Shown here: one piece after another, positions 7,221 to 25,459 of the stretch
Position numbering within the stretch: position 1 is the stretch's first letter
How the letters are laid out: each line of letters opens with the position of its first letter
Assembly: GCA_008933995.1 (NCBI GenBank)
Contig: WARS01000025.1
Location: 4,881,477 to 4,945,476 of the forward strand
Direction of reading: 5' to 3'
DNA length: 64,000 nt
Source of the DNA: Datnioides undecimradiatus
Lineage: Eukaryota; Chordata; Actinopteri; Lobotiformes; Datnioididae
Translations under genes and position numbers: made by a program
The notes under the pieces: generated by a model
The model's input: only the letters and a program-made list of their open reading frames with translations
Database searches by the model: none
Told to the model about the DNA's origin: nothing

Positions 7221-10200
7221 ATGATCTGGAGGTTTGTGCTCCTGGTTGGGGTCCTTCTCTTGGGTGCTGAATGCAGAAGCCGAGGGGGGAGGACGGTGAC
7301 TTTCCATCGGACTCAGCAGGATGGGAGCCAGGGCCAGGCGCGCGCACGCCCCAGGAGGGACACCAGCGGCCCCTCCGGCTTCAAGCCCTCTCACGGTCCC
7401 CCCTTCACCTCCTGTCGGATCCCCCTCACCCCCGCCGAGCACCAAGTCCTGGATGACAATACCCATGAGGTGAGGTGTGTTTGCATTACGTGACGTTGCT
7501 CTGAAGCTGGGAAGGGTTTTGTGAATACGTATGAGAAATGTCATACAACCTTTAGACTTTAGTATTATTAGGCGTGAAAAATTGAAATTGTGAACACACA
7601 TCAACTTGTTTCCAGCACAGGTTGTGATTCTTGCTCTTGTTTTTTGGCCAGTGTTTCAGGATATTCATGGCATTTTTCAAAGGATTATTCTTAGAATAAA
7701 AACATACAATGAAACAGGTGAAACCGTAACACAAACTAGGAGCTGTAACACCAAAAGTGTATGCAGAGTGATCATTTAGTGCAGAGTGATCTAGCTGCTA
7801 CTGGTAATAAACCACTGAACATATTTATGTGGAACATATTTATCGGCCTATTAATCTAATCTGAAAAACGTGGAAATTCAGGGTTTTGAATCCAGTTTAT
7901 TCATCCAGTTCTTAGGTTTTATCTTCAACTTCAGAAGTGATGTTGTAATGTGTGTGAGTGTCTCTTCTCTCTTTGATCTAGACGGGGTTTAACGGTGATG
8001 ATGGCTCCTATGTGATCCTCACATGGGTGGGCGATGGCACAGGAGTGAGTATCTTAGTGGTGCTACAGAGCCACAACTGCTTTTTGAGCCTACTTTTAAT
8101 CTAAAGTCCTGGAATTTATAATGTTTCAGTCCACCTGAAGCCCCCTCATGTTAAGAAGGAAAGACTGATTACGTACTAAATTTGCGTTCATAACTGATTG
8201 AACCTGACTTAGTTTTCCTCATCAAGTCAAACTTGTGTTTCCCAGGTCGTCCTGGTGCTGTCAACACAAAGCGCACCTATAGATACTTTCCTAGAAGGAG
8301 GCTCCTCAAGACTCTATCGAAGGTGAGTCAGTATTTGTCTGGAAAATGCAGCATTACAGCATGAGCCTCACATCAAACCCACAGTCCAAACCGAACTGTC
8401 TTCCCCTCAACAGCACAGATTATGGAAAATCCTTCCATGACATTTCCCATCGGATCAACAACACCTTCATCAGGGAGGAGTTTGGAGTCAGTGTTGGACC
8501 AGGGAGCTCTGTAAGTCAGCAGGAGATCCGTTAGACTTTCGTTTAGGCGGGAAAAGCATTGCGCGTTTCCAGACCAGAGAGAAGTGCGTGATGTTGCCTC
8601 ACAAAAGTGTGAAGACACCTCGCACGTGTCACATCTTCACTGTGAAACCACTTTTTACCCTTAATCTTCACAGTTTTGAGGCTGACATGGTCGAAAACTC
8701 GGCCACACAAATGCAAAGTTATGCCAACATTTTGGCACCACACACAGCATCGTGAAATTCAAATGATTTGGATGTTTTTTCCTCTTCGTCTTCATTCGTC
8801 ACTTCTACTTTTAATTAGGAATATTTGTGAACTGGCAGCTTTGTTTGAGATCAGATATTTTCTCCAACATGCAAGATGATTAAAAAAAAACCCTTTGAAA
8901 AAATGGAAACTTTTCTAATAAAAATGCCATATATAATGTGATTTTTATACATTTCTCTTTAATATATTGTCGTTATGCACGCCAGCTTTCAATCTCAGCT
9001 CTGCTCTTGTTCGATTTCAACTGGCAGGTCATATTAACAGCCGACATACCGGTGGTGGACAATCGAGGCGGGATCATCTTCACCTCTACGGATGCTGGTG
9101 CAACCTTCAAGTTAATCCAACTGCCCTTCCACATGGCTCAGCCAATCACGTACCACTTCCTCAACCCTGACTACCTCGTGGCCCTCAGCATCGACGTGAG
9201 TCACATGGCTTTCTTTGCTGCCCTTTATACATGTTGCTTTGCTTCCTCATTTATTCTGATCCTCAGGGTCATAAAGCTCTCTTTTGCTGCTTGTAATATC
9301 CCGTAAACTCTTGCATCATTACACCCGCGCACACACAAGCGGCACACACCTTAAAGCAAAGGTAAACATTGCTCTGTTCCTTCCTGACTCGCAGGGCGGT
9401 CTGTGGCTCTCTCTGGACTTTGGTGCCAAGTGGACACAAGTTCATGATGGAGTGCATTCTTTCTCATGGTGAGGATAAACAGGAAACAAAAGAACACCCC
9501 AAATCCCAGCGATGTTAGATGGACCATATAGACAATGCTGCAATTTTACTTGAATATATTGCAAATCTTTGTGGAGTGGGTTTTGCTCTGGAGAAGAAAG
9601 GTCAACTGTCACACAGTGGTTCATGGAAACTGTTTGTGACACAGTTGTTGCGTGTGTGACATGTTTTTAACTTCCTCTTTCCATCAGGGGAGCTGGCATC
9701 AATCTGTTCTTCAGCTGCAGTCGAGTAGACGCAGGTGAGAAGCCGTAAGAAGTCCACCTTCTTGTGACGCAAACAGGCTGTAATCAACTGCGTAGTGTGT
9801 GGTTTAATGTTTTGGTTTATTATCTTGGTTCAGAAAGTACAATCAAATCTAAGTTAACAAGTTAACACCATCGCTTTGCTTTGTTTGAAGATCTTTATTG
9901 TCCCATTAGAGGACATTCTGTCTGCAGCATGACAACGTAACAACAATAAAAACACAATAAAACAGTAGATGACTAAAGGTGTCATGACTGTAAACACACA
10001 CAATATAAAACACAATAGAAAGTGTTAATATCCGCTTCAAGTGAATGGTGGATCTGCACCTGTTGCTCATGGAATAGATGAAACGTTGAGCTTGTTAGCG
10101 CTGATCTTCAGGCACTAGTATCTCTGATCACATTGGAGGACGTCGGGCTTTTTAAATTGAGCATAGTTTGGATTGACTAACATGGATTTTGCTTATTCGG

Positions 10201-13200
10201 TGTGGGATTTGTAGATTAAAAAAGCTGTTTTAGGCCAGAGACGTCAACGTCCTTGCTCCAGTCACAATCTCAAAGTTCAGTTTCTTAAATATAAGCTCAA
10301 AATAAACAAATAAACTGCCTGAAATCACAAATTTGCCCCAGAAGCCTCTTCAATCCGTTTGATTCTATTGTTAGACCCTGGGTCCAGGTGAGGCAGAGCT
10401 CCAAAGTGCTTCACAAAACGTTCCACTTCTCAGGCTTTGAAAATGCAGAGGGAAAGTAAAAGCCTTGTATTTTTTTCTGCAGTAGCCAGTACAAGCATTA
10501 ACTTGTGCTATGACTCCACGTTGTTGCCGTAGTTGAGGCAGACGAGAGGGGAGATTTGGTGCTGAAGAGGACACAGGATCTGGGGAAGACCTTCACCATA
10601 ATCCACGAGGACATCTACAGCTTCGGCTACATCGGAGCCTTTCTCTTCTTTTCTGTGATGGAGGATTCGGTAAGACTACGCAACGCAAAGCCTTTTCATA
10701 CACACATATTAGTGTCTGCAGTAGAGAACATGACGTATTAAACGGCGACGCACTGCTTTGCTCCCAGAGATCCCCTCGCGTCATGTACTTCTCATCAGAC
10801 CAAGGAGACACCTTCAGTCGAGCGCTGCTGCCGTCTGCCTCCACTGAGCAGGTGAGAAGCACGTTCAAACACTCAGACAGACGAACCTGCCTCATGTTAA
10901 CGACAGCCCTGGTCTCATTTTGATCATTTTCTCCATCATTTGTATCGGTTATAATCAGAAAGATACGATAATCTTTTACTTTTGAAGCAAGTGTTTATTT
11001 CCACCATCTCTGAGCCTGGTTTGCTTGTTTAACCTCAAGTTAGCTCAATATTTGTTCAAAAAGTGTCAAATGCCATAAGCTGGCATTGAATTTTTGGTCT
11101 TCTTCATCTTTATAATGATAATAATACTTATGATTTTGTTTGTGTGGACCTTTCAATCTAGGCTTTCCATAGACAGCATGAAAGCAATCACAAATACACA
11201 AAGAAAAACAATTAAACAAAATCAACCAGAAACACTTAATTTAAAGAACTGTATAAAAGAAATGTGCAAATAAATCATCTGATTAAGGTGATTGCACAAA
11301 AGAATAGCATCATGTAAACAGAGACTTCTCACTTCTCACAGCGGTTGAGGTGAGGAGTCTGTAACACACTGTGTCTTCATATAGATTTGAATAACAGAAA
11401 TTATGTCAGCAGATCAGATATAAACTGTGAGGTGTCAGTGGAGCAAACGTTCGATCGCCCTTTGACCTTAAACTAGACTCTGGACCTTAAACTAGACTAG
11501 GATATTGTACCAGTTTTGTGCAAATCAGAATTCTGTGTTCGACTGTTCTCGACAATTTTAGACTTTTTTTTTTTTTTGTGCAGCTGTTTTTTGTAACTTT
11601 GGGATCAGAAATGAGCAGCAGTAGTAAATGAGAAACTGTAATACCGCCACACATCTACAGATGTTCAGATAATGATCTTGGTCTGTAACAACTTTAAGTT
11701 GTGAACTCTCACAGACGCACACTCACATTCTGGTGGCTATTAGTCAGTAAAAACCATCAGTGGCAACATTTCCTTTTTCAACACCAACTGAACGCACATC
11801 TTTTCTGGCAAGACACACACACACACACACACACCCACACACACACACCCACGGCATCTTGTTGACAACACAAACACACACTCTGTCTCACAGTGATTAG
11901 ACAGGGTTTATGGCAACGATCAAATTAGTCATCACAAAGTTGTTTTTTTCTTATTTGCACTTGCAGACTTTCTCACCCATATGTGCTCACTCTCTCTCTC
12001 CCTCCCTGTGTGTGTGTTTGCAGTTCTACTCCATCCTGGATGGAGACGAAGACATGCTGTTCATGCATGTGGACAACCCAGGAGGTAACACACACACACA
12101 CACACACACAAAAAAATTACTACTTTAAAAACATGTTTGACACATATTCTCAAACGTCCCCTTGTTGGGAGGACAACAGGGCTGAATTTATAGCTCTCTC
12201 AGCCTCTTTTGTTGTAATGGAAAAGCTCAACGGTAAAGGCCAGACTGGTTTCACAAGTTCTTGGCGTTGCTGACAAATCATTCCATCATAGTGAGTGTGT
12301 GTTTGTGCATGCAAGTCCAGCTGCACAGTCTTTGTTCCTTTCTGTCTCTCTCTCTCTCCATCCACCTCCACCCTGGCCTCATGCTTTCTTTCTCACTCAG
12401 TCTCTCTTTCTCACTCATCTCCATTTCTTTTTTAAGGTTATATTTCTGTTTCCTCGGCAGAGCGCTCTTGTTAACGCTCTCTGGGTTAGCTGATGGCACT
12501 TTTGTCCTGCTAAGATAAATAGGGGAGATATGGGGGTAGAGGGGCTTTATCTTTTGTTGGCTGGAGGGAGGGAGATTAAGTTTACACTGCAAAAGCTGAC
12601 AACGATATCTTGGGATCAGGGTGTAACACAAGCACACAGACACACACACCCACTACCACACTTTCACACTTGGAAACCTAAACCTTGTCCATCACCTCCC
12701 TCAGCTGAGCTTGTCCTTCATGGCTCTAGCTGACACGTTCGTGAGCTTCACACAGATAAATATGATTGATGATGACTAGCTGTTATCGTGCTGATGTGTA
12801 AAGGTTTGCGTCAGCTGTTCCCAGGTGCTGATTCATCTTCAGGGCTTTTGCTAGTCGAATGTGACATTTGTTCATCCTCTCATTGTTTTACAGCCCGTGC
12901 TGGCCGGTCGCTTTGTTTGGTATTTGCTGAATTGAGAATAAAACTTTTTCAGATTGTGGCACTGGAGGGTTGGACAAAGATGGGAAGACCAAAGGAAAAA
13001 TTATCTTTAGTAGTTAAAGTAGAAAGTCAGAAAAGTAAGAAGCGACAAAATACAAATGACAACATCCTGGATGCATCAGGAAGTAATGTGGTTCACCACC
13101 AACGTGACGAAATCCGTCAAAATGCGTCTCGTCACAAATTACAAAAAATAAATAAATAAAGCTATCAAAATAAAAAACAAAATACTGGTGCCAAGATAAA

Positions 13201-16200
13201 ATACATATGTTTTTTTATTTTTGAAACAGAGGGGATAATGATTTTGAATCAATGTACATTCAGAATTTGTACACCCTGGAAACATGGTTTTCAATTTTTA
13301 TGACGTACACAAGGTTCTGGTGGAGGTTTTAAAGCGTCAGGAAGTAAATGCTACTGTATCTAAGCAAAACCAGTGTCTTAGACAGGAAACGTGCTCTCTG
13401 TCTATTTTAAAGACATAGCATGATACCCATCTGGTCTGTTTAGAAGCATATTTTGCTGCTTTTCAATGGGACAATGGCCAACATTTAAATAGCTGTTTAA
13501 TTGATACAGATATCTGGGCCAAGACCTCTGTATGCACTCACTGGTCATTCACAGTTTAATTAGCTGCGTTATGTTGCCACATCTTTTGCTCACCAGATGG
13601 ATTATTTCTCTGCATTCAGCCAAGCCACATTAAGCCTGATTGGTCAACACCACTGGGATCAGAGTCTGCCAGACTCTGTATTTATATGCAGAATCAGTTT
13701 GTTGTAAATACTCTTCAACTTTTCAAATATTTCTGGTTCTAAATTGCTCCTGTTGTGGATGATATATTACCTTTGCAGATGAAAGCACTCTCACTAGAGG
13801 GGAATGTTGCGTTAAAGTCGTGCAGAAAGGAGCAGGAATAGTGAGTGCAGCTCCACAGAAAATAGGTCCCATCTGGAAGAATGAAGGGTCTCCAGCCGAG
13901 CTTTGCTTTGGCTTGAGATCTAAAGTCTCTTGAGTTCGTTCACGGTCCAGCCTTATTTTTATTGTTGCAAATCCTGGCACGAGTATATTGAGCAATTCGA
14001 AAATGCAAAATCACCCTCGAGTATTTTGTGACAAAGCTCTGTCGAATACTACCCGTCTCTGGCAGCGTCTGGGTGATATGGGCTGTAATTAAGTACATTA
14101 TCAATACTGAGGTATCACTATTCGTTTTAAACAATGACTCCATGCTAAAATATGCAACCAGAGCTCCTTTTTACACATTTCCAACATTGTATATGAATTA
14201 AATAATAAAATAGGCCCCTGACTACCTTTTGACATTCGACAGTATGTATTTGTGTGTGTGTGCTTGTCTCACTGTTGTCTCTCCCTGTTGTCTTTTGTTT
14301 CACCACAGACACCTTCTTCGGGACCATGTACACGTCAGATGACCGCGGTATCTTGTTCTCCAAATCGCTGGAGCGCCACCTGTTTGATGGCCAGAGGAAG
14401 AGCGATTTCACCAACATAACCTCCCTGCGAGGAGTCTACCTCACTAACAGACTGGACGACGGTAAACATCCTGCCGTCCTGACCTCTGTGGACACTCGCG
14501 CACACTCTTGGCTGCATTGCCTTTATTACATTTACTGTGCATTGGATTAATTCTCAATACATGTAATTAACATACAGAACACAATAGGTAACTCATTGAT
14601 GATAGCAAGGATTAAAGAATGATAGCAATGATTATGTTTCTGTGGTCATTCTGAATTTAACTGCTCTTCAGGGTTGTTTAATCCTCGATTTTCTCTCTTT
14701 TGTGACTTGGAGTAATAATAATAATTAATAAAACGGTAAGAACCCAGGGTCATACACGTACTTTTTAAGCACTTTTGCTTAAGCGGTTTGAATGCAGGGC
14801 TTCGGCATCTGCAGCTAACCTGTCATTTGGCCATTTGTTCGCCTTTTTCGATAAAACCCTGATGCACAAATGATGCTTTTTGTTGCAGATGGCCGTATAA
14901 GATCTGTCATTTCCTTTAATAGAGGAGGGGCGTGGAGACAACTCAACAAACCTGAGAATGTGGACTGTGGAGAGCAGGTGGAGAACGTAAGTGACATGGA
15001 GGGAAACCTCATCCCGCATAACAACACTGTATTTTACAAGTAAATCATCAAATCAAATTGTGTGCGTTTCATCAGTGCAACCTTCATATCCATGGAGAAC
15101 ACAGTCGCAACATCCACATCGTTCCCATGCTGGCCCTGTCTGAGCCAACTGCTATTGGTTTGGTCATCGCACACGGTAAATACAGCAGTATACTCATATT
15201 AAGAGCTTTTGATATGCAGATTAAATGATGTCAAACTTAAGTTATGCACATTTTTTGATTTGGATAACTTCTAATAAATTGAATGAATCTTTGTAAAGAT
15301 GTATTTAGACGATCTCCTCTGCTCTGCAGGTACTGTGGGTGACTCCTTGTCATCGTCGCAGCACCCAGATGTGTTTGTCTCCTCAGATGGGGGTTACAAC
15401 TGGAGGGGGACACTGAGGGGTCCTCACCACTACAGCATATTGGACTCTGGGGGTCTCATTGTGGCCGTGGAGGTCCAGCGAGAAAAACAAGTGAAGACTA
15501 TCAAGTACTGAGCAGATATTTTGTATCATCTGACAATGGAGAGAAGATTGTTCTTACGTTGATCTGATGTTCTGCACCTCAATTTGTCATCACCAGGTTC
15601 TCCACAGACGAGGGCCAGTGCTGGAAGTTCTACAACTTCACCGAGCAGCCCTTCTTCTTCGCTGGCCTTGCATCTGAGCCAGGGACCAAAGCCATGAATG
15701 TCAGTGTGTGGGGCTTCCGGCCCGAGGATGATGACCAGCCCATGTGGGTGGCAGTGACCATCGACTTCCAGAGCCTCATTACAAGAGAGTGTGAGTTAAG
15801 ATGCTATCATGCTATAGTGCTATAATGCTATTACTACACTGTTGCCCATAAAGTTGGAATAATTTTGTTTTCAGACACATTCCTCTTTTTATTCTTATTT
15901 ATACACATCAGTAATCCCTTTTGACCAGGTGCAATGATGAGTTTTGAGAAGATATACACTTATCTATCAAGAATAAATCACATTGTCACAATCATTTCAT
16001 GAGAAGAGTAAAAAAATATTTTATTCCAACTTTATGGGAACAGTGTATTATTATTATAGTATTATTATCTGCCAACACAGTTTCCTGTTTCAAAAACTGA
16101 ACCCATGACGTGGGACTTTCCAGAACTTCTAAGAATAGATATAAAAATATGTTTCTCTTACATTTTACAAAATGCTTACAAACACAAGACAGTTGACCTA

Positions 16201-17979
16201 AAAAAAAACCCCAAACTACATCATATTTCCCTGTTAACTCTTCTGGCTGTGTTGCCTCCCTGCATTTTTCTGAAATTTGTCATCATCGAATACTCTCAGT
16301 TCCTTATAATGAGTAAGGGTTAGCCTAGTTTTGATTGTTAAACTCTTAATGAATCAGCCTTGAAGAGGCTTTTTTTTAGCTTTCCTTTGTTACTTTTCAG
16401 TTGCGAATATCGGAAATTATAGAGAAATGCTTGACAACTGATATGTCAGGGACTCCAGTTTCACAACAATTCAGAATCTGAAGTCAATTATCTCTTTTTG
16501 TTTTTTTTTTATTTTAGTAGTACTACACTCCATGGCTAGCACATTTGATTGCCAGCACAACTAGGAATTGGATTTGGGGTGACGCTTTCTCCACGTCAGT
16601 TAAGGAAAAGGTTAAAAACTAGCTTGTATTCATTTGTAGACACCTGATACAATGTGATTCAGAAAGTCTGAAGCTAAGAAAGTTATCTGTATTGAACTAG
16701 CTAGATATAAAGCCACCGTCGTTAACCTCTTCCCTCCCTCTTCATCTGACTGACCAGGTAATGACCAGGACTATGAGGAGTGGTTGGCCCACTCTACAGA
16801 TGGAGGGGACCCAGAGAGAAACGGCTGTGTCCTGGGAGTCAAAGAGACTTACCGGAGGCTCAAGAAACAATCTGTGTGCAGAAACGGCCGAGGTTTTGTG
16901 GTGAGCAAGAAGCAAAGCCCCTGCCTGTGCACCAGAGAGGATTACCTATGGTATGTCAGTTTGTTTGAGGCTAAGACTACACATATTAACCTGGCATCTG
17001 CAATGGTTTTATCAGAGGCTAAGCTTTGACATGTTGTAGCAACTAAGACATCATAGAGATATTCCCCTGAGAAGCCCTAACATGTCCTCTTTAACAGTGA
17101 CTATGGTTACTATCGCCATGTGAACACCTCAGAATGTGTGAGACAGTCCAGCTCTGCAAACAAAACCTTGGAGCTGTGTCTGAACGGAGAGGAGGATGAG
17201 CTTCTGACTGCAGGGTATTACAGATCATTCCCTTCTTAATCAAAATGAAGAGGCACACCTCCAGTCTGTACTCACACACTTCTGACTGTGTTTGCAGGTA
17301 CCGCAAGGTCCCGAGTGACAGGTGTGAGGGGGGATTCTCTCCTCAGCTGGCGGTGCAGACTGTTGTTAGACCATGTGGTGTGAAACCCAGCCCTGGTCCA
17401 CCTGCGAGATCCTCATCTCCCGGCACAGACTTTGACACACCGGTTGGTCGATTTGCTCCCCTAATCAGTGCACACTTTCTTTTTTTTTTTGGTGTTAATT
17501 TTGAGGATTACACCAGCTGTTGCGTGTTTTCTTCCAGCGAGAGAAGCTGGTGTTGATCCTGGTGTGCGCAGGAGCAGGGGTCATCGTCCTGATAGCTGTG
17601 GTTTCTGCCGTCTTTGCTGTCAGGAGGGTGGTTTACAGAAACAGGTGGGTGCCTAGTGCGCCTCTTCTGCATGCATACCTTCATGCACTGAGTATCAGCT
17701 GAGCTCTGTGGTTTAATGTTGCCCTCTACAGGACGCCAGCGTACCGTTTCTCCAACCTCCGAATTCAAGATGATGATAACGGCATCACAGCTGATCTTGA
17801 AAGCGCCACCAGCAGCAACGGCACAGCCTGCCAGCAGGACTCAGACGATGTATGCTTTATTTAGCACTATTTTGGGGGTATTTTGGTGCCGTTTTGAGCT
17901 TCAAAAAAATCAGATGGTGGGGTTTTCTTCCGTACACTGACATCTTTTTTTTTTTTTTTTACAGGATCTTATTGAATGA
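7221..17979 (+). CDS. sort1: Sortilin (Vps10-domain sorting receptor), 21 coding exons, 823 residues
   Basis: Coding exons: 7221-7469, 7982-8044, 8246-8322, 8414-8510, 9028-9195, 9395-9468, 9688-9734, 10533-10669, 10768-10851, 12024-12084, 14309-14461, 14889-14986, 15076-15175, 15330-15504, 15597-15790, 16758-16950, 17098-17214, 17298-17442, 17538-17644, 17732-17849, 17965-17979. All junctions are GT-AG and phases join without a break. Human SORT1 is 831 residues. Order: signal peptide (1-18), propeptide ending in a furin-type site RARPRR (41-46), Vps10 propeller with repeated Asp-box motifs ([56 protein letters not shown]), 10CC cysteine domains in exons 15-18 ([29 protein letters not shown]), membrane span about 748-772 and a 51-residue tail ending DSDDDLIE. 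Sortilin moves ligands such as progranulin, proneurotrophins and lipoproteins between Golgi, endosome and surface. Oddities: the tail has FSNL where human has YSVL, ends DxxLI rather than DxxLL, and lacks the juxtamembrane cysteine. One loop disulfide pair is also missing. The family call is very secure. Whether this is the SORT1 orthologue or a lost-in-mammals paralogue is open. Confidence 0.95.
9888..10330. repeat. Probable old interspersed repeat in sortilin intron 7
   Basis: The stretch begins with AGATCTTTATTGTCCCATTA and continues through A-rich and then diverged sequence. A start of this kind resembles the reversed 3' end of fish LINE-type elements, in which TGGGACAATAAAGATCT-like text closes the element. 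I cannot name the family or set firm ends. No reverse-transcriptase frame is present. Confidence 0.35.
11813..11850. repeat. AC microsatellite in sortilin intron 9
   Basis: An imperfect AC repeat broken by two CCC interruptions. It lies about 170 bases upstream of exon 10, whose acceptor has a pyrimidine tract followed by a short TG repeat (12007-12016). Confidence 0.9.
12088..12110. repeat. AC microsatellite abutting the exon 10 splice donor
   Basis: An uninterrupted AC repeat begins at the fourth intron base (donor GTAACAC at 12085) and runs into an A-run. CA-rich tracts next to donors are known binding sites for the splicing factor hnRNP L. Exon 10 is 61 bases, so skipping it would shift the frame. 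Confidence 0.9.
15837..16045. mobile_element. Tc1/mariner-type MITE in sortilin intron 15
   Basis: This is a 209-base element with long terminal inverted repeats. The left end reads CACTGTTGCCCATAAAGTTG and the right end, read in reverse complement, reads CACTGTTCCCATAAAGTTGG. They pair over about 26 bases with a one-base indel. Both ends are flanked by TA (15835-15836 and 16046-16047), the target-site duplication of Tc1/mariner elements. There is no transposase. It is non-autonomous, and the near-matching ends suggest a moderate age. Confidence 0.9.
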
Positions 17980-18354
17980 CGCATGACTCGTTTTAATGGA
18001 TGCAATAAATATTCACATTTGAAAGCAGCTGAGCTGATAAAGACTGCCAACGGCATTTTTGTTGGACTTCTCCCTGAAGCACCCTTCAGACAAGCATGAA
18101 TTTGTCTTAATTTATTAAGCTTACTTCATTTCATTACTTACCTTTGCCTACTCCCTGATTTGTACAGTATTTTTTCATTTTATTTTAACTTGACTCTGTT
18201 TTGCACCATGTTTTTACTTTCTCTTCAATGTGAAAACAAACACAAACCTAAAAATGTGCATTTGTAAAAAACGAACAAATACAGCGTACCTTTATGTGTT
18301 CTTTATAATGTGTATGTTATAATTTAAAGTATGAAATGGTCGGGTTGAATGCTC

Positions 18355-18360
18355 AATAAA
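18355..18360 (+). terminator. Sortilin poly(A) signal
   Basis: AATAAA about 375 bases after the sortilin stop codon, following an AT-rich 3' UTR. An earlier AATAAA at about 18004 lies only 25 bases after the stop and is less likely to be the main site. Confidence 0.6.
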
Positions 18361-18379
18361 ACCAAGTTTCTGCCCATCA

Positions 18380-19290
18380 GAGGGACGCTGGCGGCGCTGT
18401 AACGTTTCCGTGTAAACAGAGAAGAAGAAAAAGGAGGCGGTTGGTGTAACAAAGATAGTTTAATAATAAGATGTGTCACTCGTGAAAAGGTTACCAGTAC
18501 TCTTCAGTGCAGCGACAACTACCATAATGTAGAGTTATGCGGTGTACTTAGTGTACCTATAAAACAATGCCCATAATAAAACTCTATTATTTTGTTCACT
18601 CAGCCATGGGACTTCATCTTATGTTGCTGTGTTTGAGAACGTGCAAGTATCACAGTTCTGAAACTAATTTGTCGTAAAATAAAAATACTTTTTGATGGAC
18701 CCTCGAATCAATCATTGTTTTAGTAGACAAATGATTTCGATTTCCTATATTCCTCAAATGAAGAGAAATACACTGAAAAATAGCTGAATAACAACAAACA
18801 TATTTGCACTGAGTTGGCCTTTATTGGCCTTGTGTTAGAGATTTAACTGCTGGAGAAACGAATGAACTGTTTCGCAGTTGTGCATTTATCAAGAACACGT
18901 GGTGAACTATTGTAGATTTAGAAATATTCAATGTGAAAATATTGTGCAAAAACAAAGGAACTGAATTTATTGCTCATTTTATCTGTGACGACTTTTGTCA
19001 ACCTGCAAGATGCAACAAACGCAAACTACAAAAGACATTGTTTTAAAGGACGTAACATGTTCATCATTTTTGCTTCATAATCATTTCAGTCATGACCTTT
19101 GAATGTAAAATTAATGTCAAGATTGAATTTTTTAACGACCGTTTTCATAAACCGCTGGCTATGTACAGCCCTAGCGCTTAAAGGGCAGATTTGTTATGTT
19201 TGCTATGTATATGTATTTTTAAATTAATAAATAAATAGATAAATACTACATACTGCCCAGTTTGTTCGTCTTCGTTTTTTCAGACAGAGT
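18380..19290. other. Spacer between sortilin and fam3c
   Basis: No coding exon is seen. At 18384-18440 a short GC-rich patch (GACGCTGGCGGCGCTGTAAC) is followed by TTTCCGTG, an ETS-type core, and a purine-rich run. This resembles the promoter or first exon of housekeeping genes. It lies only about 20 bases beyond the sortilin poly(A) signal. The rest is AT-rich and shows nothing further. Confidence 0.5.
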
Positions 19291-19412
19291 GAAACATCTT
19301 CTCTTTCCTCAGCTCTCTGTACACCTCAACTGTCAGTACACGAAACGCTACAACCAGCCCAGGACGTCCGCCAGCAAAGCGGTATTGGTGGTCACAGTGT
19401 GCAGTTGTACAG
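19290..19412 (+). other. fam3c: fam3c untranslated exon 1
   Basis: A strong donor (TGTACAG then GTAAGT at 19413) ends this stretch. The next exon starts after TTTACAG at 19858 and carries the start codon. The 5' end is not fixed, so the start given is approximate. Human FAM3C also has a non-coding first exon. Confidence 0.5.
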
Positions 19413-19896
19413 GTAAGTCAGGTGTCAGCGTTCACCATTTTCAACGTTACTTGCTGTCTATGAACTGTGCTGCATATCCGCTGCGGTCATATCGTCTCTT
19501 AGCAAACTGAGGCAGAGACGGGGAAGTTGTTGCACAGCGGAGGAATCAACGTAGCGTCACTTTGAACGTTAAATGCTACAGTTGGCGCTAGTTAGCTTAG
19601 CCTCCCAAGCTATGTACAGTATCATACAGTCAGCTAACGCCATGTAAGTGCATTATAACTTGTAACAAATTGTAATAACTAGTTCAGCTATGCTACAGTA
19701 ACGTTGAAGTGCCTCTTGTAAACTCGTAGCAACCAAATTATGTTTACACTGTAGCTAAAGACGCATAGACCTCCACAGACCTCCACAGTCCATGGAGCGC
19801 AGGGACATGTGTGAATAAGTAGGTCTGACTAAGTTATGGTTTATTGTGTGTTTACAGGCCGTTAGCTGTGGATAAAGTGGCTGGAGGTTCGCAACG

Positions 19897-22800
19897 ATGG
19901 TCAGGGCTGGCGGTAAGTGTACTTCTACGGTCATATTCAACAGTATGTGACTTATGGAGGTTATACCAAAGCTTAATGATGCGTATTAATGCCATATCTG
20001 TCTATTTATCTATCTATCTATTACCTTTTCAGGTATTTTGAAGTTGGCAGTGCTCATCTTTGCATTCCTCCTAGCTGTCTTTCTGGCCTTTCAGCTGCTG
20101 GAGATCAACATGGATTTTAAATTTGGAACTCTGGGGATATGTGAGTACCATTTCTTGTACAAGGAATCTAATTGCAACATGCTGATACCGCCCCCCGGCA
20201 GGAAGTTGTAAAGGGAAACCTGGGGTAAAAATCCTGGTGTATTCAGTTATGTATTATGTGTTCGGTGACAATGTACTTTGCAGTAGTAGTAGTAGCGGCT
20301 TTTTGTGTTTGCCTGCCTGTAGGGTCTGTCCACATCACAGATATCGTGGAGGAGGGTTTGTTCAGAGAAGCTGGTTGAAACATGACCACTGAAAGTCTCC
20401 TCTAACATATGTACAAATGTTTGCTTTCCAGCACGATCTATGGCAATGAATAACAGCCGTGAGTATGCTTGAATCACATCTGCTTTCATACATGTTCCTC
20501 ATCCCTCTTTATCAGTCGACAAAAGAATAGTAATAATAAGCCTGTCTCACATGGTGCAGTGGTTATGGCTTAATCCTGCAGTATTCACCTTGATAATAGT
20601 GGAGGCTCTGCGCATCTTGGGTGTGTTTGTCTTAGTGCTTGGCATTTAGAGTTAAAGTTGAACTGTCACTCGTTTGTGGATTACTCATGGGACTGAAACA
20701 CCTGTTGCCTGATATGGCCACCTGTTAGAAGGTGTGTAAATGGAGTTTTCTGTTCACAGCAACAAAGCCTGTCAGGTACAAATGTGGGCTGTCCAAAGAG
20801 TGTCCGGTCGGACACTTTGCCTTTAAGATGGCGAGCGGTGCAGCCAGTGTGGTGGGGCCCAGAATCTGCTTGGAGGACAAGTTGTAAGTGACGGGACATC
20901 TTGAAATGCACTTTTCTACTGTTGAACTTTTTGGGCGTCGTGGGGATGTGGACGTTTCATATTACTGCACGCTGCTGTTGTCTAAGCATGTTTTATTTGT
21001 GCAGTCATTGGGAACATTAGAAATCATCTGTGCTTTTGTTTGCAGAGCACTTAAGCTGGTATTTATGTAAAATAGCATGTAAAAAGAACAAAAACAATAT
21101 GACTAACAAATGCACAGTTGTCATAGTAACTAAGTAAAATCTTAGAGGCTGTTTTCTTTGGGGTGTGTCTCTTAGCTCAGCAACAGTCACCATAGTTACA
21201 CTGAAACTGTCTCGTGTGGTTCAAATGTATGTGATGTGATTAAATTAGAAATTGAATGTTTGCGTTTTGGTCCCACCAAACCAGGCATTTTTTAAAAATC
21301 CTACTGAAAATAAAAGTAAATGATCAGTTGTTTGCAAGTATAAAAAGAAAACCGGCAACGCCGCACAGAGAGAACATGTGAACTTTAAATTAATTAGTAA
21401 CACCTGTCATTGGTAACAGCTATTGCTGTATGTGGTGGTATAATGTGGCCATTACCGACACAGTTCAACAGTGAAACGTCCTGGCTGTCATAGTATTTGA
21501 TGAAGGTGGAAAAATGACCACGAGGTATGGTCATATCAGGCACACACTGTATGGGGTCACGCCTTCATTTAAGCTCTTCTGCTTAGCATAGATGCGTAGT
21601 TTGTAAACATCTCATAAGTGTTTTTAAAGCCTGTGATGTATTTGTGCACAGCCTTAAGTGCATTTTAAAGTAAATATGAGTGTTCTTCTCCACTGAGGAC
21701 ATATTTTATATTATCACACTTGTGATTCACTAAATTGTTGTTAAGTACCTGTCTATTTATACATGTGCAGATGGGGAAATATAAGTTAACGGATACACTG
21801 ACAACACTTATGTCTGATTACAACCTCTGTAGCAAGCTTAATAACCAGCAACAACCATGCATTTATTGAATATTTATAGAATATTTGTATAAATGTGCTC
21901 CACTTTATTTTAAAAACACATATGATGTACATGTCTCTACATATCTACACTGGCTCTCTCTCTCTCTCTCTCATTGTTCCCCTGTGCTTTGTTCTAGACT
22001 AATGAGCAGTGTGAAGAACAATGTGGGGAGAGGAATCAACATCGCCCTGATAAATGGTAACTTTATCAGCTGGACCTCCATGCTTAACAGTCGATTCGCT
22101 GAATAAATAAGCCACCGCTGATAGTAACACGATACTGCAGCAGTGTTACGCCAGAAGTGCTATGATGAAGAGAGCCATTTCAAATGGGAGGCATAAGCCT
22201 TTTGGAAAGCTGCATAGTTTGAGTCTATTAATAGAATCACATTCAGTATCAGTACCTGTCAGTCGGGTCACCTCAGGAACAAAGGCTCGGCAATCCTGAA
22301 CCATGACCACCCATTGTGTGTAATAAAAGTGCAGAAGGTTGTTGAGTGATTAATGTGAAACCTTTAGTGTAGTTGTGGTTAAAGTTATTGTCTAAACTGA
22401 ACTCACTTTCCCCCACAGGGAGAACAGGGGACCTTATCAAGACAGACTCTTTTGATATGTGGGCAGGAGGTGAGTTCATCCCTGAAACGTTTTATTTTGG
22501 ACATTTGCACACACACACACACACACACACACGTGTTGTGCTAATCTGCGTGTGTATCTCTGTGTGTAGATGTGGCTCCCCTAATTAAATTCCTTCAGGA
22601 AATTGAGGAAGGGACAGTCGTAATGATGGCCTCATTTGATGATCCCTCCACAAAGTAAGGATTTCCCTTTTGCTTGCTGATACAATTTAGTTTGACAGCA
22701 TTAACATAGATTGCTGGAGTTATCTCTAACACTGTCTGCAGGTGTGGCCACAAAATAATGTCTGTCTTCTTTGTTCGGTAGACTTAACGATGAAGCCAGG

Positions 22801-25459
22801 AAGCTCATCGCTGATCTGGGCAGCTCAGTTATCACTAATCTGGGCTTCAGGGATAACTGGATCTTTGTAGGAGGGAAAGGCATCAAAACGAAGAGTCCAT
22901 TTGAGCAGGTAACATAACCCACAAATATCTCCCTTAAATTAACATCACAACTGTATCCTGGTTTTTATTGTACAACTCTAAATATGTCAGTTTAAGGGAA
23001 CTCTTAATTCTTAAATCAGCCTTAGATTTAATAAACTAATAACGTTTGTACTACCAGCAACAACAACTCCACAGCACAGTAGCCCAAGAGTGAAGTATGA
23101 ATGTTCAGCTGAAATAAAGAGCTCCCCTCAAAGAGCTCTTAGAGCAACTGAAATCAATTATCTTTTTACCTGCAATCTCATTTAAACTGGTTCAGACAGG
23201 CTGTTGAGTTTGTCGTGATTATGGGCTAAAGAGTACTTATGTGAGTATGTAACTCGATATACCTGCATATCTGTTCATATGTGTTCATAAACACATGCCT
23301 TAACAACTCAAGAAACATCTAAATAATGCAGTTACATTAAATAATAAACTTAATAAACAATAAACAGTATAATAAGTCCCATCAGGAGTCTTAAATGTAA
23401 CTCAGGTTGTGTACCACACTCTGCATTGTTGAGATTGGACAATATGTGTCACAGATTTTTGCACAGACACAGAACCGCAACAGTGCTTCCAATTAAAAGA
23501 TGAAACGTAAATAAATAAATAAATTAACATAATGAGGATCTTGTATCGAGTTAGATCTGCAATCTCCAGTTGCAGTAATGGATGAATGTGTTTAAAAGCT
23601 TCTAAGACGCCCAAGTAAAGCAGTTTGTAATGCTTTTCCAGAGTTAGCGTGACAGCAACTGTTTGCAACTGCCATTACCTGTCAGCTATGCTAAGGGTTT
23701 GACGGCAAAAGTGCGGCGTTCGCATCACAAAGTAAACTACCAGGAACTGCGCTCGGCCACTGCAGCTGCGTGTTTGTAAAAAGCTGACCCTGGCTCATCT
23801 CTTTCGCCTTTGTGTTGAGTCCTTTGTGTTGGCACCTCTGCTGCGCCGATAGATTGGATTCATTCATTCATAGATCAGAACACTGAGAGTATTTATTTTT
23901 CTTAAGTCAACCTGTACTGCCTTTATCCCCCATGCACGCACCTGCCCTCAAATTCATAACAGTTACTACAGGGATTTGCAGGTTGAGCAAGCCCTGGTAC
24001 ATACCACCCAGGCCTTAAATACATTGTTCTGCCAGCCATGTAAGACTACAGGCGCGCACAAAGGCTTTGTGTAATCTAGTGTAATCTGTATGCTACTAAA
24101 CACCTACGATTCACAAGCCTCTCTTTACTCATCGGTCTTCGTATTTGCTTATCAGATTACTAAACAGCCCAACCTGGTTTGTGTGACTTGCAGAGCTGTA
24201 AAAACAGTTTCTATCTGTCAGTACCGCCACATGTGTCAGAGGATTCACGCACACTCACAAGAAGCTACAACCTACCGCCGTTGGCTTGTCTGATAGGATC
24301 CTGTATCCATTGGTTAAGCAGGGGGTAAAAGTTAACCATTGGCATAGCTACATTATCAAACAGCCAATAATGCATTAAAGGCAGGTAAACCTTGACTGTA
24401 ATGAAGCTGCCTTGTTGCCTTGACGTGATTGGCTCATTACATTCCATGGACACGCAGTAAACACCTTTTCACTTGCCACAGGAGTCACATATTTCACAAG
24501 AATGCCATGACCTGCTTCTGATGGCTTGTCTGACTGGATTAGAATAGGGCTGGGCTGAGGTTGGACTTGTTTTAGTGCATCAGTGTGTTTTCAAATGAGA
24601 CAAAACCATTCAAAGAGATGTTTAGTTTATGCTGATGTTTAGTAAAAATTCGTAACATCTGAGCTGAGGAGGATCTGAGCTATGAATGAACTATAAACCA
24701 AGTTCTGACATTGTTGAAAGTTGCCGTTTGACACATGAAGCGCACAATGACAGATTGTCTCCCGTCAGACTCGTTCTCACCAACTGGAAGCATTCAGGTT
24801 CAGGCGAGGGGCGGTGAAGAGAAAAACGTGCGTGATGGTGTTTGAGCAGAGTGTTTTATGTTAAGCAGAGGAGGAAGACCTGTCATTGTTCTGTACAGGG
24901 CTTGTCTCACCTTTGACTCTGCTCATCAAAGACGCAAACCGCTGCTTGTTCTCTGTTTTACCAGTTTATGCTAAACAATGGCAAGTGGTGATGTAGGCGT
25001 GATCCAGCCATACTTGTTTGTACTGGTAACCAATTCAAAAAAGAAGAGTGAATAGTACAAAGTCGGCTACAAATCGATGTATCCTAACAGTAATGGTGTG
25101 TATGTAGCACTGTAATGGTAATACATAACCACTGGCATGGCTACATTATCAAACAGGGACTAATGTATTAATGTTAGATTATACCTTGGCCCTAATCAAG
25201 CTGACTTGTGTGTGTGTGTGAGACTACATTGGGTTTATCGCATGCTTAGCCAGGGCATCGAATGCTAATAATACTCCATGGGCACGTTAGCGAAGATAAA
25301 AACTCGCGTTGCATTGGGGCGGATCTTTAAACATAACATGAGTGTGTGTCCTGTGCTTGCCTCCTCCAGCACATAAAGAACAACGCAGACACCAACAAAT
25401 TTGAGGGATGGCCCGAGGTGTTGGAGATGGAAGGCTGCGTGCCTCAGAGGCAGGACTGA
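19897..25459 (+). CDS. fam3c: FAM3C / ILEI, secreted FAM3-family protein, 228 residues
   Basis: Coding exons: 19897-19912, 20033-20140, 20432-20458, 20760-20883, 21998-22056, 22419-22469, 22570-22654, 22782-22908, 25370-25459. Phases join cleanly at GT-AG sites. Human FAM3C is 227 residues. A hydrophobic signal or anchor segment covers residues 7-28. The FAM3 globular domain follows, with cysteines at 59, 65, 87 and 222 matching the two disulfides of the human protein (58-86, 64-221). Family hallmarks include [40 protein letters not shown] and [15 protein letters not shown]. The C-terminal half, especially KSPFEQHIKNN and [12 protein letters not shown], favours FAM3C over FAM3A. FAM3C is a secreted cytokine-like protein with a beta-beta-alpha fold, linked to epithelial-mesenchymal transition and retinal development. 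Odd: residue 186 is valine where human has the dimer-linking Cys185. The last intron is long (2.46 kb) and repeat-rich. Confidence 0.95.
22508..22532. repeat. CA microsatellite in fam3c intron 7
   Basis: A clean CA repeat inside an intron of exactly 100 bases (22470-22569). The same short intron ends in TG-rich sequence (GTGTGTATCTCTGTGTGTAG) that could pair with it and bring the two splice sites together. Confidence 0.9.
24241..25290. repeat. Diverged direct repeats in the last fam3c intron
   Basis: Two kinds of copy are visible. First, 24241-24300 and 24481-24540 match over about 60 bases at a spacing of 240 (both contain GGCTTGTCTGA followed by GGAT). Second, 24326-24460 and 25118-25285 match over more than 130 bases with gaps (both contain TACATTATCAAACAG and TCCATGG.CACG). 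No open frame or terminal inverted repeat is seen. This looks like a local segmental or satellite-like duplication, or two copies of an unnamed repeat. Confidence 0.7.

Follow-up and report, generated by a model that had tools for sequence, protein, structure and literature searches.

What kind of sortilin does this locus encode, and how would the protein be sorted in the cell? The 64,000-nucleotide stretch analysed here (the window) corresponds to positions 4881477-4945476 of contig C472 in the 581 Mb genome of Datnioides undecimradiatus, and a first-pass annotation had taken its sortilin gene to be the fish SORT1, altered at three trafficking signals of the tail. Spliced alignment in two runs, with the SORT1 gene of contig C469 and human SORT1 as queries, followed by hand curation, yielded a third sortilin gene with 21 coding exons and 820 codons at window positions 7221..17979 (all features given here lie on the + strand). 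Exons 1-7 occupy 7221-7469, 7982-8044, 8246-8322, 8414-8510, 9028-9195, 9395-9468 and 9688-9734; exons 8-14 occupy 10542-10669, 10768-10851, 12024-12084, 14309-14461, 14889-14986, 15076-15175 and 15330-15504; and exons 15-21 occupy 15597-15790, 16758-16950, 17098-17214, 17298-17442, 17538-17644, 17732-17849 and 17965-17979. The start codon and the exon 4/5 and 18/19 junctions were chosen by hand: at the exon 4/5 junction the program's 6-base exon was not adopted, and position 17538 was set manually as the start of the transmembrane exon, for which the two runs gave 17572 and 17506. The boundaries that define the tail (17644, 17732-17849 and 17965-17976) were identical in both runs. Phases are consistent, and the frame is free of stop codons across all exons in a model that required GT-AG introns; some of these introns have weak donors (GTTGGT, GTATGC).

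The gene is predicted to encode a complete sortilin-type receptor. Pfam found only Sortilin-Vps10 (3.7e-97, 326 bits; cut-off 33), Sortilin_C (5.4e-39, 135 bits; cut-off 27) and Asp-box repeats. The protein can be classed as a sortilin in the wide sense because a PDB search scored 736 bits against sortilin, compared with 239 for SorCS2 and 219 for SorLA. A probable signal peptide and propeptide, read from the translation, spans residues 1-46 (7221..7358) and ends in a furin-like RPRR. The transmembrane segment, its hydrophobicity judged by eye, covers residues 745-769 (17547..17621). An extra intron (10852..12023) leaves two exons of 84 and 61 bases where the SORT1 gene of contig C315 has a single exon of 145 bases; this intron was either gained in the window gene or lost from SORT1.

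The lumenal domain is largely, but not entirely, that of SORT1. All ten cysteines between human residues 612 and 740, which make up the 10CC module, are kept. Cysteines 448, 458 and 556 of the propeller are also kept and Cys86 falls outside the alignment, but Cys257 is replaced by histidine and Cys277 by alanine; in human SORT1 these two form a pair. The earlier statement that all other parts of the receptor are intact therefore has to be narrowed to an ectodomain that is mostly so. A new cysteine, in the sequence FFSCS, lies near the two lost ones (window 9395-9734). In the neurotensin-type pocket, Phe314, Ser316, Arg325, Phe350, Tyr351 and Ile353 are kept, while Ile327 is changed to methionine and Lys260 to serine. 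A loss of Arg325 was suspected at first, but the numbering, which matches that of the docking Table 1 in PMC10817468, placed an arginine there. Besides its one transmembrane helix, the predicted protein keeps the 10CC module, the propeller of the VPS10 domain and most residues of the neurotensin-type pocket.

To place the gene within its family, we compared it with the other VPS10 loci of the genome. A search for the Sortilin-Vps10 family matched 26 exons, spread over eight contigs. Two SORT1 genes were found, on C469 (3.874-3.885 Mb) and C315 (12.338-12.348 Mb), both modelled without their N-terminal parts. Their tails read KKYVCGGRFLVHRYSVL...DSDEDLLE (C469) and KKYVCGGRFLVHRYSVM...DSDQDLLE (C315), with the cysteine, FLV, YSVL or YSVM, and DxDLLE all intact. 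Human SORT1 shares 67% identity with the C469 protein and 62% with the C315 protein, and these two are 66% identical to each other, whereas the window protein shows 47-49% identity to each of the three. Elsewhere, the clearly scoring loci on C8, C24 and C337 match SorCS2 best and that on C44 matches SorLA. Some further VPS10 loci are less clear: L010 and L024 matched no reference, L009, L012 and L023 matched weakly, and the best score of L016, on C44, was 32 bits, to a sortilin. Judged where loci score clearly, none of these four contigs seems to carry a sortilin. Exon 15 was also scanned against bacterial and archaeal contigs; of 58 pattern matches, none was confirmed as a relative.

From eight sequences, two of them SorLA proteins, a maximum-likelihood tree of the later VPS10 exons was built and rooted on SorCS2; the poorly modelled C8 locus was excluded, and the C44 SorLA entered with just the later part of its model. 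The window gene branches outside the group formed by the human and mouse SORT1 and the two fish SORT1 genes (SH-aLRT/UFBoot 94/94), and its split would thus predate the divergence of fish and tetrapods. We rejected its identification as SORT1 on the basis of this placement and of the two better orthologs in the same genome. The idea that it is nevertheless the fish SORT1 with altered signals can draw on the Pfam and PDB matches that mark it as a true sortilin, yet with two better orthologs bearing intact tails and a tree that excludes it, we find this reading scarcely credible. Since the genome holds two SORT1 co-orthologs with their signals intact, the fish has not altered SORT1 itself. The branching order among the SORT1 genes is uncertain, because the rooted tree places C315 outside C469 and the mammals (88/85) and an unrooted tree of four full-length proteins pairs C469 with C315; in the latter, the branch to the window gene measures 1.07.

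The neighbouring genes bear on the age of the split. A FAM3C gene lies at 19897..25456, its start codon, set by eye, about 2 kb downstream of the sortilin and its end given as the last matched exon. It was detected by tblastn with human FAM3C, the final two exons matched being 86% and 83% identical, and by a match to PF15711. From 26000 to 64000, downstream of FAM3C, inspection of the frames of at least 75 aa by eye revealed no gene. Pfam gave no match for ten frames of the window (seven downstream of FAM3C, two upstream of the sortilin and one FAM3C exon). Near the modelled part of the C469 SORT1 lie a GNAI3-like gene (about 57 kb) and a GNAT-like gene (about 67 kb); human SORT1 lies at 1p13 near GNAI3 and GNAT2. 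A GNAI-like gene is also present on C472, 1.3 Mb from the window gene. As a marker this is weak, because G-alpha genes sit on many contigs, among them C315, where they are at least about 2.5 Mb from SORT1. A FAM3 gene near a sortilin was seen on two blocks, in that a FAM3A-like gene (L044, C469:4742001-4746000) lies 0.86 Mb from SORT1. The names of the FAM3A-like and GNAI-like genes on C469 and C472 are provisional. These neighbourhoods fit paralogous 2R blocks without proving 2R. The paralogy with SORT1 is shown by these comparisons. The window gene is best read as an old copy, probably a 2R ohnolog, in a genome that also has two ordinary SORT1 genes; its date is inferred from eight sequences, one VPS10 region and the neighbouring genes. 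Among the open-access papers listed by searches on a third sortilin, on sortilin phylogeny or on linkage to FAM3C, none describes such a gene, which does not imply that it is unpublished.

A second contig, C471, closely parallels C472. The two are nearly equal in length (7,972,025 and 7,967,159 bases), have their sortilin, FAM3C and G-alpha genes in matching places, and are 99.79% identical over window 7279-25000. There, 17 substitutions separate them, two of which are coding and both of those synonymous, in a comparison that excluded the first 58 coding bases of the gene. Because both SORT1 genes occur once each, the second contig may be a haplotype that was not collapsed, or the two may be homomorphic sex chromosomes.

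The tail of the window protein comprises 51 residues. Its juxtamembrane segment reads RRVVYRN(R) (17622..17644) and contains no cysteine, whereas the SORT1 copies have KKYVCGGR. According to the alignment, TPA (17733..17741) stands where SORT1 has the FLV retromer segment, and FSNL (17748..17759) where it has YSVL, or YSVM in C315. The end is an acidic cluster, DSDD|DLIE (17838..17976), which the last intron (17850-17964) divides and in which LI replaces LL, so that the tail finishes in DDDLIE compared with DEDLLE in human SORT1. The serine of SDDD, of casein-kinase type, is kept. Of the signals Cys783, FLV, YxxPhi and DxxLL, the window protein has 0/4, and C469, C315 and the human protein each have 4/4. 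A search of the window tail for YxxPhi, FLV, DxxLL and the aromatic-x-[LMV] consensus found none of them but did find SDDDLI; this fails the strict [DE]xxxL[LI] pattern owing to the serine at -4, as do the SORT1 tails. The first-pass annotation had thus correctly described the missing cysteine and FSNL, which lie in exons 17538-17644 and 17732-17849, and DDDLI, which spans 17732-17849 and 17965-17979. It had numbered the motifs 786-789 and 818-822, three higher than in our 820-residue model (783-786 and 815-819), an offset that use of an exon 8 acceptor lying 9 bases upstream would explain. Its list of three altered signals stands but is incomplete, having missed the replacement of FLV by TPA and the lack of lysine in the tail. 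The window tail has 0 lysines compared with 3 in C469, 4 in C315 and 3 in the human tail. This absence is weak evidence and unremarkable alone, because at the protein's own lysine content of 2.8% a lysine-free tail is expected with P ~0.23; the value is 0.04 at the SORT1-tail rate.

Could the usual signals be concealed by an unseen alternative last exon or a wrong splice model? The gene model comes from the genome alone, two of its donor types are weak and exons 18 and 19 were joined by hand. Yet the short last exon, with 12 coding bases (DLLE in the SORT1 genes), has the same form in the window gene and both fish SORT1 genes, and retention of either tail intron leads to an end that lacks DxxLL. 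Nowhere in a scan of 17443-19890 did an acceptor lead into a stop-ended frame of <70 aa with DxxLL, which answers the concern, raised with the first annotation, that a different last exon might restore this motif, and we rejected that candidate. As the scan covered DxxLL frames, exons restoring the tyrosine motif lie outside it. We consider a hidden set of signals very improbable. Assembly error as the source of the tail was also rejected, the C471 copy having identical tail amino acids, although the agreement is of weak independence in that both contigs may be one locus assembled twice.

The tail is also where the window sortilin has changed most. Of the positions at which C469, C315 and human SORT1 agree, the window protein keeps 11/29 in the tail compared with 255/357 in the lumenal part, taken as human residues 111-745 (Fisher test, p = 0.0005). 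By region, 188/266 are kept in the propeller, 67/91 in the 10CC part and 4/6 around the membrane. The eleven tail positions are V782, R786, R791, S793, N802, D824, S825, D826, D828, L829 and E831; the acidic end is preserved and the membrane-near half rewritten. Greatest divergence in the tail is the best reading of these counts. A fading duplicate whose tail drifts under relaxed constraint would likewise change more in the tail than in the lumen, and might lose a conserved cysteine pair. Such a duplicate is hard to reconcile with an 820-codon frame open over 21 exons (given the required GT-AG introns), with all ten 10CC cysteines kept, and with the two coding differences from C471 being synonymous (first 58 coding bases aside). 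Nor is its branch any longer than those of SORT1: root-to-tip lengths summed from the rooted tree are 0.44 for the window gene and 0.48-0.59 for SORT1, so in this region the gene is not decaying fast. We regard relaxed constraint as improbable. The direction of change could even be reversed, with SORT1 having gained signals that the window gene lacks.

What the replaced signals might mean can be judged from human sortilin. According to PMC6965034, endocytosis relies mainly on YSVL, retromer is bound by FLV, and AP-1, AP-2, GGA and PACS-1 act through DDSDEDLL; about 80% of uptake is due to Tyr14 and Leu17 of YSVL, Tyr14 in particular. The role of FLV also appears in PMC9356209, where efficient retromer binding requires palmitoylation of Cys783, non-palmitoylated SORT1 undergoes NEDD4 ubiquitination and degradation, and AP-1 binding is independent of palmitoylation. 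The window receptor would most likely exit the Golgi and arrive at the surface, with little tyrosine-driven uptake by AP-2, retrieval by retromer or sorting by GGA. Its sole remaining signal would be the acidic-cluster LI end; phosphorylation of the serine in SDDDLI, should it occur, would bring this end close to the AP-1/AP-2 dileucine type, of which DDQRDLI in the invariant chain is an example. Ubiquitination on tail lysines would be impossible, and the lost cysteine need not bring NEDD4-linked degradation because there is no tail lysine to modify. We infer weak AP-2, retromer and GGA sorting, that is, a receptor with poor retrieval, poor GGA reading and slow internalisation, held mainly by its SDDDLI end. 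The altered sorting proposed in the first-pass annotation is thus a fair deduction, all three signals it named being changed, but it does not concern SORT1 itself.

The tail might instead be retuned rather than crippled, FSNL engaging a mu subunit as FxxPhi and DDDLI working for AP-1/AP-2 and weakly for GGA, in SORT1-like cycling. FSNL and DDDLI are conservative changes: their position and spacing are preserved, and DSD, DL and the final E are the same as in SORT1. SorLA, whose C-terminal motif is not known to be LL, is relevant here. In PMC4460050 it binds GGA1 via the VHS domain, through a motif there called DXXLL. PMC6627992 lists AP-4 mu4 with a phenylalanine-based motif and LI ends for AP-1/AP-2, giving DDQRDLI as bound by both and GGAs as the sole readers of DXXLL. 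In PMC6965034, human sortilin with Y14A as its single change moved between Golgi and endosomes as before, and about half of this transport was lost in the Y14A/L17A double mutant only; with the leucine kept in FSNL, the Golgi-endosome route may suffer less than predicted. Against retuning, FLV and Cys783, both linked to retromer retrieval, are missing too, and Tyr14, absent here, accounts for much of the human uptake noted above. We consider retuning somewhat unlikely. On balance we favour, with reasonable confidence, the joint explanation of an old SORT1 paralog, probably a 2R ohnolog, with a signal-poor tail and altered trafficking. The more specific proposal, a second vertebrate 2R sortilin on the FAM3C side, absent from mammals and standing outside the SORT1 cycle with an AP-type LI end only, is put forward tentatively. 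If true, the protein would serve as a VPS10 receptor at the surface or on the secretory route, alongside two SORT1 proteins that recycle, its own tail being free of palmitoylation, tyrosine, retromer, GGA and ubiquitin handles. Sortilin function is read largely through tail signals, and a gene with its pocket mostly kept and its tail signals replaced offers a natural comparison for the role of each. Work on fish sortilins that is limited to sort1a and sort1b may overlook a receptor with ligands in common, and an ohnolog absent from mammals would bear on the division of sortilin roles after genome duplication.

The mammalian VPS10 receptor family has five members, as stated in PMC6965034. Among known systems, SORT1 is the closest to the window protein, with a lumen made of a Vps10p domain with 10CC only, most pocket residues and a short tail; the genes share a similar exon plan, the DSD acidic cluster and a terminal 12-base coding exon. 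The window protein differs in its 47-49% identity, its replaced Cys257 and Cys277 and the absence of Cys783, FLV, YxxPhi, DxxLL and any tail lysine, and its gene in one extra intron and the FAM3C neighbour. SorLA and SorCS2 share the VPS10 domain, and both lie outside all sortilins in the tree. Compared by sequence, the AP dileucine of invariant chain, DDQRDLI, is like the window tail in having acidic residues followed by D-L-I, whereas the window tail has serine rather than aspartate at -4 and a single glutamate before the C-terminus.
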